Assembly: GCA_902537425.1 (NCBI GenBank)
Contig: CACBBD010000008.1
Coordinates: 1 to 64,000, forward strand
Direction: 5' to 3'
Length of the DNA stretch: 64,000 nt
From: an uncultured SAR86 cluster bacterium
Lineage (GTDB): Bacteria; Pseudomonadota; Gammaproteobacteria; Magnimaribacterales; Magnimaribacteraceae
The position numbers were made by a program, and so were the translations under genes. A model generated the notes under the pieces. That model saw nothing but the letters and a program-made list of their open reading frames with translations. It ran no database searches and was not told the origin of the DNA. Shown piece after piece: positions 3,236 through 14,812 of the stretch (positions are counted from its first letter, which is position 1; each line of letters opens with the position of its first letter).

Positions 3236-3312
<77 letters not shown>

Positions 3313-3325
3313 ACAAAGGGTTCGC

Positions 3326-3354
3326 AGTATAGTTAGATGCAGCGAAAGAATCAA
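3326..3354 (-). promoter_or_regulatory. Sigma-70 promoter of tRNA-fMet
   Basis: In the 51-base gap between the two tRNAs the minus strand reads TTGATT (3349-3354), a 17-base spacer and TATACT (3326-3331). It is followed by the G/C-rich discriminator GCGAACC just before the tRNA. Near-consensus hexamers, ideal spacing and a GC discriminator are what growth-rate/stringently controlled stable-RNA promoters look like. It would give a short leader of about 7 bases before the tRNA. Confidence 0.75.
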
Positions 3355-3363
3355 GAAAGATAT

Positions 3364-3449
3364 TGGTGCCGAAGAGAGGATTCGAACCTCCACGAGCAAT
3401 GCTCACTACCCCCTCAAGGTAGCGTGTCTACCAGTTCCACCACTTCGGC
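3364..3449 (-). tRNA. tRNA-Leu (GAG)
   Basis: An 86-base class II tRNA with encoded CCA (3364-3366). It has a perfect 7-bp acceptor stem, a long variable arm and the anticodon GAG at 3413-3415 (loop TTGAGGG), reading CUC/CUU leucine codons. It lies 8 bases after the secG stop with no promoter between, so it is probably cut out of the secG transcript. The order secG-leuU-metY-rimP is the same in E. coli. Confidence 0.96.
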
Positions 3450-8422: not shown

Positions 8423-8893
8423 TTAAAGATATTCTACTTTCTCAATCTCATATTCAGTAAGTCCGCCCGGAGTCTCTAATTTGATTACATCACCTTCGAA
8501 CTTTCCAATTAATTTTTTTGCCAAGGGGGAAGCAAATGAAATTTTACCAGCACTAGCATCTGCTTCGTCCTCTCCGACAATTTTATAAGTAAGTGATTTT
8601 TCTAAATTGGAGTTATAAACTTTTACTGTGGTTCCAAATATTACTTTATCCGAAGATTCTATGGTCGTGACATCAATTACTTGAGCACTGGAGAGTTTTG
8701 ATTCAATGTCTCGAATTCTGGCTTCAGCTAAACTCTGTTCTTCCTTTGCAGCATGATATTCTGCATTTTCTTTTAAATCGCCGAATTCTCTGGCCGAGGC
8801 TATAGCATCAATTATTCTAGGCCTATCTTCCGATTTAAGTTTTTTGAGCTCTTCTCTTAAAAGAACTTCTCCTTCTTTTGTAATTGGATTCAT
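8423..8893 (-). CDS. greA: Transcript cleavage factor GreA
   Basis: Rescues backtracked RNA polymerase by stimulating transcript cleavage. The 156 residues form the usual two parts: an N-terminal antiparallel coiled coil (about 1-75) with the acidic tip in [19 protein letters not shown], and a C-terminal FKBP-like domain with the signature [14 protein letters not shown]. The start ATG overlaps the carB stop by 4 bases (ATGA), so greA is translated in the pyrF-carA-carB-greA-rlmE-ftsH series. The carB-greA link matches Pseudomonas. Confidence 0.97.
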
Positions 8894-11800
8894 AATGAGA
8901 TTTTATCATGAAGGTCTTGAAGTCTCTCAACCGACCATAGGTCTTTATTGCGTATTACTGAGCAAACTGCCCTTCCGCCTTCTAGCGTCGTGGTGCAATA
9001 AATCTTTTCTTCTAAGGCAGTTCTTCTGATTGAGGCGGAATCAAGAATAGATTGTTTCCCTTCGGTGGTATTGACGATAAGGTCAACTAGTCCATTTTTC
9101 ATCGCATCTACAATATGAGGTCTTCCCTCGGCTACTTTTTTAATAATCTCAACCTTTATGCCTGCTTCATTTATGTGTTTTGCAGTACCTTTAGTAGCAA
9201 TAATATTAAATCCTAAATCAAAAAACTCCTTTGCAAGTTCTGCTACGAAAGGACGATCTGTGTCCCGCACGCTTAAAAAGACAGATCCGTCTTTGGGAAT
9301 AATCTCTCCTGCACCTAACTGTGCCTTAGCATAGGCTTCAGGAAAACTGGAGCCGACTCCCATTACTTCTCCAGTTGATTTCATTTCAGGTCCTAAAATT
9401 GGGTCAACGCCTAAAAATTTATTGAAAGGAAAAACTGCCTCTTTTACAGAAAAATATTCTGGAACTATTTCCTTATTGAAATTTTGATCCTTGAGGCTAA
9501 TACCAGCCATACACAATGCTCCGGCTTTAGCTAATGATCTTCCAATACATTTTGAGACAAAGGGGATTGTCCTAGAAGCTCTTGGATTTACTTCAAGTAA
9601 ATACAACTCATTATTATAGTATGCTAATTGAACATTTATCAGTCCTACTGCTCCAATCTCGATGGCTATTTTTTTAACCATATGAGTGATTTCAGCTACC
9701 AATTCTTCAGATAAACTATATGGAGGCAAAGAACATGCAGAATCACCAGAATGTATCCCTGCCTGTTCAATATGTTGGAGAATCCCACCTATAATAACTG
9801 ATTCACCATCGCATACTGCTTCAATATCCATTTCAACTGCTTGATTGAGAAATCCATCTAGAAGCACAGGACTTTTTGCACTTGCTTGCACTGCCTCAAC
9901 AAGATAATTCTCAAGGTCTGTTTTTTTATAGACCACTTCCATAGCTCTACCGCCAAGAACATAAGAGGGTCTTACTACAAGAGGGAAACCAACTTGTTCG
10001 GAAACTACCATCGCTTCCTCAACACTTGAAGCAATACCATTTGGAGGTTGTTTTAAGGAATGTTTGCTTACAAATTCTTGGAATCTCCCTCTATCTTCTG
10101 CTAGATCAATTGAATCAGGAGATGTGCCCAAAATTGGAACACCATTCTTTTCAAGCTCTTTTGCTATCTTCAAAGGCGTTTGTCCGCCATATTGAACAAT
10201 AACACCCTCGGGAGTTTCTTTATCCGTAATGGCAAGAACATCTTCTACTGTGATTGGCTCAAAATATAACCTATCTGATGTATCAAAATCAGTTGAAACT
10301 GTTTCGGGGTTACAGTTTACCATGATTGTTTCGTATCCTTCTTCTTTCAAGCCAAGAGCAGCATGGACACAACAATAATCAAACTCTATACCTTGACCTA
10401 TCCTATTGGGCCCTCCTCCCAAGACCATAATTTTTTTATTTTGAGTTACGTAAGCTTCACATTCTTCTTCATATGTTGAGTACATATAGGCAGTAGAGGA
10501 TTCAAACTCGGCAGCACATGTATCAACTCTTTTAAATACAGGATTGAGATTTAATGATTTTCTGAGTTGTCTAACTTGAGCTTCTGAACTTCCAATCAAT
10601 TCACCTATTCTTGAATCAGAAAAACCTTTTCTCTTAAGATCATATAATTGCTCATAGTCTAAATCTTCTAAGGAAACATCTTCAAGATTTACTTCTATAT
10701 CTATTAGTTCTTTGATTTGAATCAAAAACCAGGGATCAATTTTAGAATACTCAAATACTTCTTCCGATGTTAAACCATTTCTAAATCCATCTGCTACGAA
10801 CCAAAGTCTATCAGGGCTAGGTATGCTTATTTTTTGCTTAAGCGTCTCAAATTCATCATCCTCATTAAAAATCGGATTTAGACCACTGCGTCCGGTCTCT
10901 AAACCTCTAATTGCTTTTTGCAGTGACTCTTGAAATGTTCTACCAATAGCCATTACTTCTCCCACAGATTTCATCTGAGTTGATAAGACAGGATCTGTTT
11001 GGATAAACTTTTCAAAGTTAAATCTAGGAATTTTGGTCACTACATAGTCGATAGAAGGTTCAAAAGATGCCGGTATAACACCACCAGTAATATCATTACT
11101 CAATTCGTCTAATGTATAGCCAACAGCTAGCTTTGCGGCAACCTTCGCTATCGGGAAGCCAGTTGCTTTTGAGGCTAAAGCCGAAGATCTGGAAACTCTT
11201 GGATTCATCTCAATAATTAACATCTCACCATCTTCTGGATTAATGGTGAATTGGACATTTGAACCTCCAGTTTCGACTCCTATTTCCCTGAGAATATCAA
11301 TTGAAGCATTCCTCATAATTTGATATTCCTTATCAGTAAGAGTTTGAGAGGGAGCAACAGTTATTGAATCTCCTGTATGAACTCCCATAGGATCAAGATT
11401 TTCAATACTACAAACGATTATGCAATTATCATTCTTATCTCTGACAACTTCCATTTCATATTCTTTCCAACCACCGAGAAATTCATCAATAAATATTTCA
11501 GAGGTTGGAGAAAGCTCTAGCCCTCTTTTACAAATTTCGTCAAATTCTTCGACGTTGTAAGCAATTCCTCCTCCAGAACCACCCATAGTGAAGTTTGGTC
11601 TTAACACACAAGGAAAACCAATTCTTTCCAAAAGAATATGAGCCTCTTCATTATTGTGCGCCAAACCAGATTCGGGAACCTTTAATCCAATCTTTTCCAT
11701 ACAAGCTGCAAATAATTCTCTATCCTCAGCCTTATCGATTGCCTCTTTAGTTGCTCCTATCATCTCAACATTATGTTTTTTTAATATACCCCTACTATCT

Positions 11801-12105
11801 AAATCAAGAGCAGCATTTAACGCAGTTTGACCTCCCATTGTTGGTAATAATGCATCTGGTTTTTCTTTTTCAATTATTTTCTCAATAGTCTCCCAATGAA
11901 TTGGTTCAATGTATGTGGCATCCGACATGCTTGGGTCTGTCATAATTGTTGCAGGATTTGAGTTGATTAAAATAACTCTGTAACCATCTTCTTTTAATGC
12001 CTTACAAGCTTGAGCTCCAGAATAATCAAATTCACATGCCTGGCCAATTACGATGGGACCGGCTCCTATTATTAAAATTGAATTTATGTCTTTTCTTCTA
12101 GGCAT
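8890..12105 (-). CDS. carB: Carbamoyl-phosphate synthase large subunit
   Basis: Makes carbamoyl phosphate from bicarbonate, ammonia (from CarA) and 2 ATP for pyrimidine and arginine synthesis. The 1071 residues show the duplicated biotin-carboxylase-like halves, each with ATP-grasp signatures (first half [10 protein letters not shown] and [23 protein letters not shown], second half [15 protein letters not shown]). The C-terminal MGS-like allosteric domain (about 930-1071) binds UMP or ornithine in relatives. It overlaps carA by 8 bases and greA by 4. Size equals E. coli CarB (1073). Confidence 0.98.
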
Positions 12106-13213
12106 TTTTGGTCATATTTTTATCAAATGTTGTGAATAGATATGCCAGATCATGAGGTCCAGGGCTAGCTTCAGGATGTCCTTGAAAACTGAAAAAAGGC
12201 TTAGATGAATGCTGGATCCCTTGAATAGTTCCATCAAATAAGGATTTATGAGTTACTTCTACTTCTGCAGGTAAGGAATTTTCTTCGACTGTGAAACCAT
12301 GATTCTGAGAGCTTACTGAAACTTTCCAAGTTTTGAGATCTTGGACAGGATGATTTGCACCATGATGACCAAATTTCATTTTTGATGTCTTGCCACCCAA
12401 TGCTATTGCCAGTAATTGATGGCCTAGACAAATACCGAATATTGGCATACTGATTTGTATTAGTTCTTTAATTGTCTCAATGGCATAAATGCATGGTTCA
12501 GGATCGCCAGGTCCGTTAGACAAAAACACTCCACTTGGCTTGAAATCTAAAATTTCTTGGTAAGAAGTTTTTGCAGGAAAAATTTTTAATTCATACCCCT
12601 TATCAGCTAATATCCTTAATATGTTTTTTTTAATTCCGAAATCTAAAACTGCAACTCTAAAATCTGATTCACCATTACTTCCTCTCCATGTTCCTTCTTT
12701 CCAATCATAACTAGATTCTGTTGTAACTTCTTTTGCGAGATCTAAACCAGCTAAACCTTCAAAATCTTTCGCTAAATCAATTGCTTTGTCTGAGTCAACT
12801 GAGTTACCGGTAAATATCGATGCTGACTGAGCACCTTTCTCTCTTATAATTCTTGTCAATTTTCTTGTGTCTATATCTGATATTCCTTGGATATTATTTC
12901 TTATTAAGTAATCGGATAATGTTTCAGTATTACGCCAACTACTTTCTGCCTTAGAAAGCGACCTAATTACTAATCCGGAACACCAAATTTTATCTGATTC
13001 AGTATCCTCACTATTTGTTCCTGTATTTCCAATATGTGGGTAAGTTAAGGTTACTATTTGCTTAGCATATGAGGGATCTGTAAGAATTTCTTGATAACCT
13101 GTCATAGAAGTATTGAAAACAATTTCCCCATTTACCCATCCTGAAGCGCCAATACTTATTCCTTCGAAGATTGTTCCGTCTGCTAATGCAAGTATTGCTT
13201 TTTCTTTACTCAT
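12098..13213 (-). CDS. carA: Carbamoyl-phosphate synthase small subunit (glutamine amidotransferase)
   Basis: Hydrolyses glutamine and channels ammonia to CarB. The N-terminal CPSase small-chain domain (about 1-150) contains [17 protein letters not shown]. The class I amidotransferase domain has Cys262 in GICLGHQLL and the His346/Glu348 pair in [11 protein letters not shown]. 371 residues, a normal length. Its ATG overlaps the pyrF stop by 4 bases and its 3' end overlaps carB by 8, so pyrF-carA-carB is one translationally coupled unit. In Pseudomonas carA is preceded by dapB; here pyrF takes that place. Confidence 0.98.
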
Positions 13214-13893
13214 ACAATTTTTAAATTGATTTCTTCTAAAGTGGCTCTGGGATTTTGGGAACCAGTAATAGGTCTTCCTATAACAAGAAAATCAGAACCA
13301 TTTTTAACTGCTTCTTCGGGTGTTGATACTCTGCTCTGATCATCTAGATCAAATTGGAAAGGTCTTATTCCAGGAGTTACTGTTAAAAAATCTTCACCTA
13401 ATTCGTTTTTTATATTTTTTGTATCTGAGGATGCGCACACAACTCCATCTAACTCACATTCTTTAGCTAAGGTTGCTAGTCTTAAAACTTGCTCAGAAAC
13501 TCCCTGTATGCCAACTTCATTGAGAGCATCTTCTGATAGACTTGTTAAGACAGTGACACCAATTAATAATGGAGGTTGATGATAGCCTTCTAAAGCCCTT
13601 CTTGAGGCTTCGAGCATTTTAATGCCCCCAGAGGCATGAACATTTACCATCCATACTCCGAGATCTGCAGCTGACCTTACCGCTTCGTAGACAGTATTTG
13701 GAATATCGTGGAATTTTAAGTCTAAAAATATTTCAAATCCCAGCCCTTTAAGGTCATTAATAACTTGAGGACCTGATGCAGTGAATAATTGGTTGCCTAC
13801 CTTTAGTCTGCAGATTTTTGGATCAAGAGTTTTGGCAATATTCAAAGCATTTATATAATCAAGGTCTAACGGAATAATGATTCTATTTTCCAT
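13210..13893 (-). CDS. pyrF: Orotidine 5'-phosphate decarboxylase
   Basis: Last step of UMP synthesis, decarboxylating OMP. The 227-residue TIM barrel has substrate residues Asp10 and Lys31 and the catalytic array Asp58-x-Lys60-x-x-Asp63 in [11 protein letters not shown]. The phosphate-binding end is TPGIRP followed by the GRPI loop near the C-terminus. First gene of a pyrF-carA-carB operon, an unusual pairing that puts the first and last pyrimidine enzymes together. Its ATG follows the stop of an in-frame leader ORF by 3 bases, has little Shine-Dalgarno of its own, and lies downstream of a strong intrinsic terminator. Confidence 0.97.
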
Positions 13894-13896
13894 ACT

Positions 13897-13989
13897 TTAA
13901 TTAAGAGAATTGATAAAATTTGATAAAAAAAAAGCGAACCAGAAAGGTATCTGAAGTTCGCATTTTTGATTTTTAAGGCCTATTGGCAT
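13897..13989 (-). CDS. Putative 30-residue attenuation leader peptide of pyrF-carAB
   Basis: ATG at 13989 and TAA at 13897-13899 frame a 30-codon ORF that spans the whole terminator hairpin and its U-tract. The U-tract is read as Phe-Phe-Leu. The ORF ends 28 bases past the U-tract and 3 bases before the pyrF ATG. It begins about 6-7 bases from the predicted transcription start, with no Shine-Dalgarno. This is the geometry of E. coli pyrBI: a ribosome tightly coupled to polymerase would cover the hairpin and prevent termination when UTP is low. Existence of the peptide is inferred; the open frame and its position are seen directly. Confidence 0.6.
   Translation of the reverse strand: MPIGLKNQKCELQIPFWFAFFLSNFINSLN
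13925..13961 (-). terminator. Intrinsic terminator/attenuator in the pyrF leader
   Basis: On the minus strand the stem GCGAAC/GTTCGC (13956-13961 with 13934-13939) is extended by CAGA/TCTG across a 2-base bulge, with loop TACCTT. It is followed at once by nine Ts (13933-13925). It lies between two divergent genes, upstream of pyrF and with no gene ending nearby, so its only evident role is premature termination in the pyrF leader. The plus-strand copy is followed by ATTTTTGATTTTT and could stop stray plus transcripts too. Confidence 0.85.
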
Positions 13990-13994
13990 TAAAA
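13971..13994 (-). promoter_or_regulatory. Possible pause hairpin at the leader-peptide start
   Basis: Minus-strand arms TTTTAA (13989-13994) and TTAAAA (13971-13976) pair, with an inner GCC/GGC stem and loop AATA. The hairpin spans the leader ATG and precedes the terminator by 9 bases. In pyrBI-type systems a promoter-proximal pause lets the first ribosome load and couple; this hairpin could do that, or could hide the leader start codon. Structure seen by eye; function inferred. Confidence 0.4.
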
Positions 13995-14000
13995 CCACAC

Positions 14001-14006
14001 TATAAT
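14001..14006 (+). promoter_or_regulatory. Predicted -10 element of the map promoter
   Basis: A perfect TATAAT lies 48 bases upstream of the map GTG; no good -35 is visible at 16-18 bases. It overlaps, on the opposite strand, the -10 of the pyrF promoter (14002-14007), because TATAATA/TATTATA are complementary. The two divergent transcripts would therefore compete for one polymerase-binding site. Confidence 0.45.
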
Positions 14007-14031
14007 AAATGTATGTTTCCCTGTCTATCAA
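14002..14031 (-). promoter_or_regulatory. Predicted sigma-70 promoter of pyrF-carA-carB
   Basis: Minus-strand TTGATA (14026-14031), an 18-base spacer and TATTAT (14002-14007). Transcription would start near 13995-13996, giving an RNA beginning GGUUUUAAUG. The U-run within the first bases resembles the initially transcribed regions of E. coli carAB, codBA and upp, where UTP-dependent reiterative transcription controls output. Confidence 0.6.
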
Positions 14032-14053
14032 AACCTTAGAAAATTAAGAAAAA

Positions 14054-14812
14054 GTGATAAAAAATCAAGAAGAACTCAACGGAATGAGAAAAGCGGGCAA
14101 ACTTGCTGCTGAAGTATTGGAGATGATTGGAGATTTTATTAAACCAGGAATCTCAACTGGAGAATTAGATAAAATTTGTTACGAGTATATTGTTGATGTT
14201 CAAAAGGCTATTCCTGCAAATATAGGATATAGGGGTTTTGAGAAAACATTATGTACGAGCATCAATCAAGTTATATGTCATGGCATACCAGATGATTGTC
14301 GAATCCTTAAAAGCGGAGACATTATGAATATTGATGTCACAGTAATCAAAGATGGATGGCATGGGGATACTTCAAAAATGTATCTGGTAGGAAAAGTTCA
14401 AGCACACAACGAAAGGCTTGTTAAAATTACTCAAGAATGTCTTTATAAGGGTATAGAAGTTGTAAGACCCGGAGCAAGCCTAGGGGATATTGGTCATGCA
14501 ATACAAACCCATGCGGAAAAAAACTACTACTCCGTGGTTGAGGAATACTGCGGTCATGGAATAGGTAAAATCTATCATGATGAGCCTCAGATACTTCATT
14601 ATGGGGAAGCCAATACAGGACAAGAAATTATTGAGGGCATGTGTTTCACTATTGAACCTATGATCAATTTAGGCACGAAATACACAAATTTATTAGAAGA
14701 TGGATGGACAGTTGAAACTAAGGATGGCAAGAATTCAGCACAGTGGGAGCATACTATTTATGTAAATAAAGATGGGGCAGAAATTCTCACACAGAGAGCA
14801 GAAGAAAGATAA
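14054..14812 (+). CDS. map: Type I methionine aminopeptidase
   Basis: Removes the N-terminal Met from nascent proteins. The five metal ligands are present: Asp94, Asp105 (GDTSKMY), His168 (YCGHGIG), Glu201 (TIEPMI) and Glu232 (QWEHTI). It starts with GTG; the protein then aligns with the family N-terminus (NQEELNGMRKAGKLAAEV), so the start is credible although the Shine-Dalgarno is weak. 252 residues against 264 in E. coli. In most gammaproteobacteria map is divergent from rpsB; here it faces pyrF, while map-glnD-dapC downstream is conserved. Confidence 0.97.
   Translation: MIKNQEELNGMRKAGKLAAEVLEMIGDFIKPGISTGELDKICYEYIVDVQKAIPANIGYRGFEKTLCTSINQVICHGIPDDCRILKSGDIMNIDVTVIKDGWHGDTSKMYLVGKVQAHNERLVKITQECLYKGIEVVRPGASLGDIGHAIQTHAEKNYYSVVEEYCGHGIGKIYHDEPQILHYGEANTGQEIIEGMCFTIEPMINLGTKYTNLLEDGWTVETKDGKNSAQWEHTIYVNKDGAEILTQRAEER

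Follow-up and report, generated by a model that had tools for sequence, protein, structure and literature searches.

Results

A leader block fills the gap between map and pyrF

The window analyzed here is a 64,000-nt stretch of DNA from an uncultured SAR86 cluster bacterium, taken from contig 8 of a genome of 1.34 Mb at 74% completeness. SAR86 bacteria, among the commonest uncultured groups of the surface ocean, carry small genomes that encode few regulators. On the minus strand of the window, pyrF (13210..13893), carA (12098..13213) and a gene at 8890..12105 that we take from its sequence to be carB are transcribed away from a divergent plus-strand neighbor (14054..14812), presumably map, encoding methionine aminopeptidase, which was named from its sequence in the same way. 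The PyrF protein is 95% identical to that of G007 (SAR86 cluster bacterium AG-422-M05), which belongs to the same genus.

The 160-base map–pyrF interval holds a compact leader that reads, along the minus strand, as promoter, ATG, a hairpin around the ATG (hairpin 1), linker, terminator hairpin with U9, and open reading frame (ORF) stop. The promoter (13999..14027) has a −35 TAGACA (14027–14022), a 17 bp spacer and a −10 TATAGT (14004–13999). Judged by distance from the −10, transcription would likely start within 13989..13994, where T7 (13992) is the pyrimidine at the usual distance and A9/A10 (13990/13989) offer a purine alternative at the leader ATG. Hairpin 1, TTTTAATGCC-AATA-GGCCTTAAAA (13971..13994, minus strand), carries the leader ATG within its 5′ arm. 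The leader ORF, MPIGLKNQKCELQIPFWFAFFLSNFINSLN (13897..13989), starts with the ATG at 13989–13987 and runs for 30 codons to a TAA at 13899–13897, 3 bases ahead of the pyrF ATG at 13893. Wholly within this ORF lies the intrinsic terminator (13925..13961), with its stem at 13961–13934 and U9 at 13933–13925. The first-pass annotation had described these promoter hexamers, the 30-codon ORF and its stop 3 bases short of pyrF, the hairpin across its start and the strong U9 terminator inside it, all of which we recovered; its ORF “about 6 bases into the RNA” stood as an ORF, with a distance that depends on where the RNA starts: the ATG begins 9 bases past the −10, with its first base as base 10, and would lie 0–3 bases into an RNA that starts 7–10 bases past the −10.

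Of 200 dinucleotide shuffles of the 107-nt leader, 199 fold less well than the leader itself (z −3.2). A simple terminator scanner listed no terminator at the leader, in our reading because the bulge and the loop of more than 8 bases fall outside its rules. The terminator is not a generic sequence, since the 64 kb contain GCGAAC...GTTCGC a single time when no mismatch is allowed. Rfam families, including the PyrR site and riboswitches, gave no match at 13850–14110 up to E 1, and on this ground we rejected a riboswitch or other known RNA. The sole Rfam matches in the whole window, at gathering score, are two adjoining tRNA genes at 3239–3449 on the minus strand.

The leader belongs to carA

The block of promoter, hairpin and terminator is kept in all 18 loci with a readable map–pyrF gap, 16 from the window genus and 2 from genus g6. 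In an alignment of 17 of these loci helix 1 is invariant and helix 2 nearly so, while loops and linker vary, so that such close relatives offer no covariation. A covariance model, R1, found one copy in each of 41 of the order's 203 genomes, with an E value of at most 0.01. Eighteen of these matches are the map–pyrF loci; among the other 23, we fetched 20, and all 20 lie between a divergent map and carA with no match to pyrF. Wherever context was read (38 of 41), the match sits directly ahead of carA or pyrF. We accordingly rejected the reading of the leader as a pyrF device.

Where pyrF was read elsewhere (L020–L027), it stands behind other frames, lapA-like by eye, its usual gamma-proteobacterial place, and no leader element was seen near it by eye. 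Because the element otherwise sits between map and carA, and because pyrF of L020–L027 lies elsewhere without it, this distribution identifies the leader as a carA(B) element into which pyrF moved late, in the window genus and part of g6 (2 of the 4 g6 loci read have pyrF between leader and carA); in other genera of the order carA follows the leader directly. What the first-pass annotation had presented as an attenuator of a pyrF-carA-carB operon is in this light a carA(B) leader. A short, internally deleted pyrF remnant lies in L028 (G031:C11, near 1501–1590), behind frames that we take to be SIS-domain and lapA-like genes, and the intact pyrF of G031 is the copy in the car leader operon; we see in the remnant a sign that the gene was relocated.

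The upstream regions read came from 112 of the 203 genomes. The carA upstream regions of 60 further genomes have map divergent in 59, the sixtieth (L099) being cut, and carA loci of 16 further genomes were also fetched. We tabulated 97 loci in three families, 26 in f1 (the window family), 30 in f2 and 41 in f3. The table excludes L099 (leader cut by the end of its contig), L173, which lacks the carA start, L017, which has no sequence upstream, and the R1 matches in G019, G020 and G024; L158, L159 and L167 were checked separately from the 97, and L004 was omitted from alignments A1 and A2. Gene starts were set at the in-frame start nearest the tblastn boundary, which leaves some carA starts (TTG in genus g8, L158) unsure. 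Map is likewise the neighbor in families other than that of the window. In a fourth family, f4 (L160–L166 and L168–L172), all 12 loci are without the leader pattern and carA begins just 75–77 bases from map, making f4 a natural leaderless control. A TATAGT-like hexamer stands shortly ahead of the carA ATG in the f4 loci read.

Outside SAR86, nothing clear was found by R1 or R2 among 369 genomes of the class, four of them SAR86, in scans whose stricter filters lose weak matches. R2 matched a single genome, a SAR86 member of f3, and R1 matched six, two of them SAR86 and four at E 0.002–0.01, about chance level; of these four weak matches, three were checked and had neither a carA nor a map match within the fetched locus.

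A start-codon hairpin is fixed to the promoter

The spacing between promoter and leader ATG is nearly absolute. The pattern TAWAGT/TAGAGT-N8-AATG was present in 97 of 98 loci tried, the exception being L099 with its cut contig, as well as in 3 of 3 extra leader loci and 0 of 12 f4 loci, and TRGACN stands 17 bp upstream of the −10 in all 97 tabulated loci of f1, f2 and f3. The map–pyrF gap showed no second conserved promoter that could serve the operon, from which we judge that there is a single one. Every row of A3 (38) and A4 (29) has T or C at position 7 past the −10, the usual transcription start distance, and AA at positions 9–10, so that, given the chosen −10 register, the pyrimidine at 7 and purine at 9 of a pyrC/pyrD-type start are present. 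The register is less sure in f3, because its −10 TAAAGT is a poor match and a TATAAA three bases upstream would shift it.

The same start region invites comparison with E. coli carAB P1 (GUUUGC), where polymerase stutters on a T tract at high UTP in a control that works at low UTP levels (PMC6245113). Positions 5–8 are TTTT in f1, f3 and g8, as UTP-sensitive reiterative initiation would need, but a C at position 7 breaks the tract in g9, g10 and g11, and replacing a T of the run by C abolishes the effect in E. coli (PMC6245113). Since it also leaves the hairpin, ORF and terminator unexplained, we regard this as a decidedly unlikely account of the leader, although it could form a second layer in f1 and f3.

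The arms of hairpin 1 resemble TTTTAATG...CATTAAAA in most loci and TTCTAATGC...GCATTAG in g9–g11, and the spacing from TAATG to CATTA (or CCTTA, CTTTA) is 7, 8 or 19 bases according to family. Among 36 distinct rows, the pair formed by position 7 is U-A in 15, C-G in 16 and U-G in 5. The T of the ATG is constant, whereas its partner is A in 25 rows and a non-pairing base in 11, a constancy that fits a start codon; pairing is missing in 9 rows at position 5, in 8 at position 6 and in 11 at position 11. For the structure as a whole, two-sided changes occur in 67 cells, where shuffles average 28.1, and the covariation score reaches 0.219, compared with 0.118 in shuffles; none of 500 shuffles equaled either value. 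Sliding the partner by 1–3 columns drops paired cells from 88% to 36–41%. Of the five pairing measures, the number of pairs with two-sided change (8 vs 6.2 in shuffles, 45 of 500 as high) was not distinct, and further pair types (16 vs 18.4, 493 of 500 as high) fell below the shuffles. Because the structure was drawn from the same sequences and the shuffles ignore relatedness, we consider the evidence for pairing good, short of overwhelming. In f3 (L117–L157, L167) the hairpin loop is ATTTTAG in 25 of 29 aligned rows by our own count; this loop and the 5′ TTTTAA could compete for one TTAAAA arm, making two mutually exclusive hairpins possible.

A palindrome TTTTAATG...CATTAAAA that overlaps the likely transcription start could also be read as a DNA operator for a dedicated repressor, and its position, along with two arms that are very constant in the window genus and f3, would suit such a site. 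An operator would not be expected to tolerate a distance between TAATG and CATTA/CCTTA of 7, 8 or 19 bp by family, nor one half-site change kept as U-G in 5 rows, which is natural for RNA but a mismatch for DNA. At 0 mismatches the palindrome occurs at exactly one place in 16 of 19 genomes of the window genus and at none in the other 3 (two without a pyrF match, one with pyrF cut by the contig end), on which ground we rejected a regulon operator, and E. coli-type ArgR is absent. We consider even a single-site operator quite unlikely.

An open frame mostly ends at the next gene

Across the 97 loci, the leader ORF stops between 6 bases before and 14 bases after the first base of the next gene in 86. 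In f3 the ORF has 23–35 codons, and in 29 of 41 loci its stop shares one base with the carA start (TAATG, TAGTG or TGATG, mostly the first two); the others end in ATGA/TTGA manner (5 of 41), 8 bases inside carA (6 of 41) or with a stop that begins 7 bases ahead (1 of 41). Ahead of the gene, f3 loci contain 1 stop in the leader frame, compared with 40 and 75 in the two alternative frames, and when the variable stretch was shuffled the mean hit rate was 0.05–0.13 in g13–g16, g19 and g20, and 0.43–0.49 in g17, g18 and g21. In f2, the ORF ends 8 bases inside carA in all 18 loci of g10 and g11 (null 0.48 and 0.73; 0.48–0.73 over g8, g10 and g11), and genus g9 is an exception, its ORF ending away from carA, either after 15 codons inside the terminator (6 of 8) or after 8 codons before it (2 of 8). 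In f1 the stop falls within the accepted range around pyrF or carA in 25 of 26 loci, against a mean null of 0.25–0.75 by genus, and stops by frame number 8 (leader), 17 and 24, so that with a high null and a modest stop advantage the ORF-end test alone proves little there. By a looser control, any ATG or GTG frame within 160 nt with the same end range, 8 of 24 other bacteria also have such an ORF.

No Shine-Dalgarno sequence serves the leader ORF, and only 9 bases separate the −10 from its ATG; the ORF could be translated leaderless. The peptides of f1, f2 and f3 are mutually unlike, and the 3′ arm of the hairpin is read in a different frame in f1 than in f2 and f3, yet the frame stays open; what is kept therefore seems to be an open frame that ends at the gene, not a peptide.

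This bears on the idea that the peptide itself senses arginine or another amino acid, in the manner of a classical attenuator or of the amino-acid-sensing CPA1 leader peptide of fungi. Although carAB feeds arginine synthesis too and the f3 peptides share roughly M[PS]A..FSSL[KN], the shared residues lie on the hairpin arm, where bases are constant at third positions as well, and no run of Arg or other codons was seen. With the peptides unlike among families and the arm frame changed in f1, we give almost no weight to amino-acid sensing, and an arginine leader peptide was rejected for its lack of conserved Arg codons.

Terminator and Shine-Dalgarno site stand in for each other

A terminator is predicted in all 26 f1 loci (−9.5 to −14.2 kcal/mol) and all 30 f2 loci (−11.8 to −15.0 kcal/mol) but in 0 of 41 f3 loci (best −4.4 kcal/mol), and 7 of its 11 pairs have rows changed on both sides. 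Conversely, a Shine-Dalgarno-like site at the next gene, scored by a loose pattern within 18 nt, is found in 0 of 26 f1, 13 of 30 f2 and 38 of 41 f3 loci. Judging from these counts, the two features stand in for each other among families, such that the f1 leader would close with a terminator and the f3 leader with a coupled, normally equipped carA start. Since the 41 f3 loci have the start hairpin and ORF without a terminator, those two parts, rather than the terminator, may define the element. In a Map protein tree of 46 rows, a starred branch sets f2, grouped with f4, apart from f1, which falls among f3 rows; this grouping favors either two gains of the terminator or its repeated loss, as far as a single gene, a midpoint root and several unresolved forks allow.

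The attenuator proposed in the first-pass annotation is well supported as a conserved leader with a leader ORF: relatives retain promoter, hairpin, terminator and open frame, the terminator varies in paired fashion, and the ORF ends near the start of the next gene. The terminator on which it based attenuation is kept in f1 and f2 and missing from f3, and the alignment of relatives that it proposed returned two-sided pair changes together with f3 loci that lack the terminator and f4 loci that lack the leader altogether. It had counted relatives that keep the operon while the hairpin or U-tract is gone as evidence against attenuation. We take f3 and f4 to narrow the claim, not to be fatal to it, because the absence follows whole families and in f3 is paired with another arrangement.

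A rival reading is plain pyrBI-type attenuation, in which, from a fixed start, UTP-sensitive polymerase pausing in the leader lets a ribosome catch up and override the terminator and hairpin 1 would be a pause or stability element. An ORF that spans the terminator is present in f1 and in g8, g10 and g11 of f2, the terminator is conserved in both families, and pyrBI itself is the precedent (PMC4824070). Against this stand a very short leader, an A-rich, variable linker between hairpin 1 and the terminator in which our alignment showed no conserved U-run, and the f3 loci, which retain hairpin and ORF with 0 of 41 terminators. We think plain pyrBI-type attenuation unlikely.

Nor does the terminator readily mark the end of a trans-acting small RNA gene of ~70 nt, with carA served by read-through. 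In its favor, the element has its own promoter, two hairpins and a U8–U9 tail, near-invariant in genus g1, and a small transcript from the carA 5′UTR has been suggested in P. syringae (PMC4997734). However, all 38 model matches with context read, out of 41 in total, sit directly ahead of carA or pyrF, no other conserved operon promoter was seen in the gap, and the terminator stem differs in sequence by family and is missing from f3. We hold a small RNA gene to be very improbable.

A candidate two-layer switch

On balance, we put at an even chance that the leader is a cis-acting, leader-ORF attenuator that tunes carAB, here pyrF-carAB. Within that reading, translation of the leader is probably the switch. 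With the start codon closed, no ribosome would load; in f1 and f2 the terminator would form and transcription end, and in f3 the coupled carA start would not be reached. With the start codon open, a ribosome on the leader would prevent the terminator from folding, or would re-initiate at carA. A ribosome close behind polymerase would block the terminator; in E. coli, termination fell from ~90% to <10% once a stop codon had been moved to a site 5 bp ahead of a terminator (PMC4824070).

The choice of start site might be the sensor, a real possibility that falls short of probable and the least certain part of the scheme. When UTP and CTP are plentiful, RNA polymerase would start at the position 7 pyrimidine and the full hairpin would hide the AUG; when pyrimidines are scarce, it would start at A9/A10 and yield a near-leaderless RNA with a weaker hairpin, so that carbamoyl-phosphate synthesis would turn on. 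Levels of initiating NTPs are known to shift start sites (PMC5730371). Modeled probabilities of a free AUG rise in f3 from 0.006 (start 7) to 0.196 and 0.643 (starts 9 and 10), and in f1 and f2 together from a median of ~0 to 0.012 and 0.064; at locus L001 exposure goes from 0.001 at start 7 to 0.009–0.012 at 9–10, a small change in f1, the window family. The model thus predicts a hairpin that hides the AUG only from the upstream start clearly in f3, variably in f2 and weakly in f1. Unless RNA polymerase pauses, moreover, a ribosome is unlikely to catch up with it within the first 100 bp (PMC4824070), a real difficulty for a leader of ~68 nt that keeps the sensor step among the things we infer. 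Taken together, a two-layer RNA switch, in which pyrimidine-dependent start choice hides or frees the leader AUG and the readout is a terminator (f1, f2) or coupling to carA (f3), is a tentative proposal that we rate as rather unlikely in full; the same joint claim holds that this combination was not known before and that it amounts to a natural swap between transcriptional and translational readouts on one sensor.

Whatever the sensor, we favor pyrimidine as the signal, because the operon makes carbamoyl phosphate and UMP, because E. coli-type ArgR (PF01316) was absent from all 61 SAR86 genomes searched, the same search being positive in 9 of 14 controls including E. coli, and because of the precedent of P. 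aeruginosa carAB, which lost its pyrimidine response on removal of the leader stem-loop (PMC4997734).

Discussion

The SAR86 leader resembles a pyrimidine switch that relies on RNA and ribosomes in place of a repressor protein. If true, a repressor-free switch on the first pyrimidine step would show how streamlined cells sense nucleotides, and the four families provide a ready comparison of leaders with a terminator, without one and absent altogether. Its behavior is testable in E. coli reporters without growing SAR86. We found no description of the SAR86 carA leader in the literature on SAR86 carA or attenuators or, among the matches listed, on carAB leader peptides.

One comparison is with carAB of Pseudomonas aeruginosa, which differs in responding to arginine as well as pyrimidine; ArgR of that species is of another protein family. 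As described by Kwon et al. 1994 (via PMC4997734), P. aeruginosa carAB has a single promoter, a stem-loop needed for pyrimidine control and a leader peptide ahead of carA, and so, compared by description, it resembles SAR86 in placing a leader ORF and a stem-loop ahead of carA under one promoter; the title of Kwon et al. 1994 states that no untranslated region exists. The first-pass annotation knew of no leader-peptide attenuator described for a pyrF-carA-carB operon, a statement that must now be set beside this earlier carAB leader peptide, reported at second hand in PMC4997734. In that source, no start codon was found for a carA leader peptide in P. syringae, carA attenuation is cited as predicted in P. 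syringae pv. phaseolicola, and the passages describing P. aeruginosa are without the start-codon hairpin, the map neighbor and the swap of terminator and Shine-Dalgarno site.

With E. coli pyrBI the SAR86 leader shares a short leader ORF, an internal intrinsic terminator and a pyrimidine gene downstream. It differs from the longer pyrBI leader, whose ORF has a ribosome binding site, in being much shorter, with an A-rich linker, no ribosome binding site and a hairpin over the start codon. In E. coli and Salmonella, pyrC and pyrD are the classic cases of start-site switching, where the upstream start gives a hairpin that hides the translation start, and SAR86 is like them in its pyrimidine ~7 and purine ~9 past the −10 and in a 5′ hairpin that is predicted, clearly for f3 alone, to hide a translation start in RNAs from the upstream start. 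What would be hidden in SAR86, however, is the start of the leader ORF rather than that of an enzyme, and f1 and f2 have a terminator further on. E. coli carAB P1 has the same genes and a T-tract in the first transcribed bases (PMC6245113), but the SAR86 tract is broken by C in g9–g11, and in E. coli carAB is also served by a second promoter and controlled by several regulatory proteins (PMC6245113). The carA motif of Polynucleobacter (SRC-12-1) is also a structured RNA directly ahead of carA (PMC8632094); it differs as one extended, imperfect hairpin beside the carA ribosome binding site in beta-proteobacteria, and the portion of PMC8632094 that describes it includes neither a leader ORF nor a terminator.

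A predicted terminator of −11.6 kcal/mol or stronger lies within 200 nt of carA in 19 of 24 other proteobacteria (one of them a beta-proteobacterium, Chromobacterium), and some of these may end the preceding gene. Several of the terminators upstream of carA in L259–L282, ~10 by eye, read GCGRGATG...CGCTTTTTT and so carry an ATG in their 5′ arm; these could possibly be a wider car attenuator. Leader control of carAB is itself already reported, in Pseudomonas (PMC4997734), and what is new in SAR86, as far as we have seen, is a hairpin over the start codon that keeps a fixed place at the start site, the swap between terminator and coupling among families, and the insertion of pyrF.
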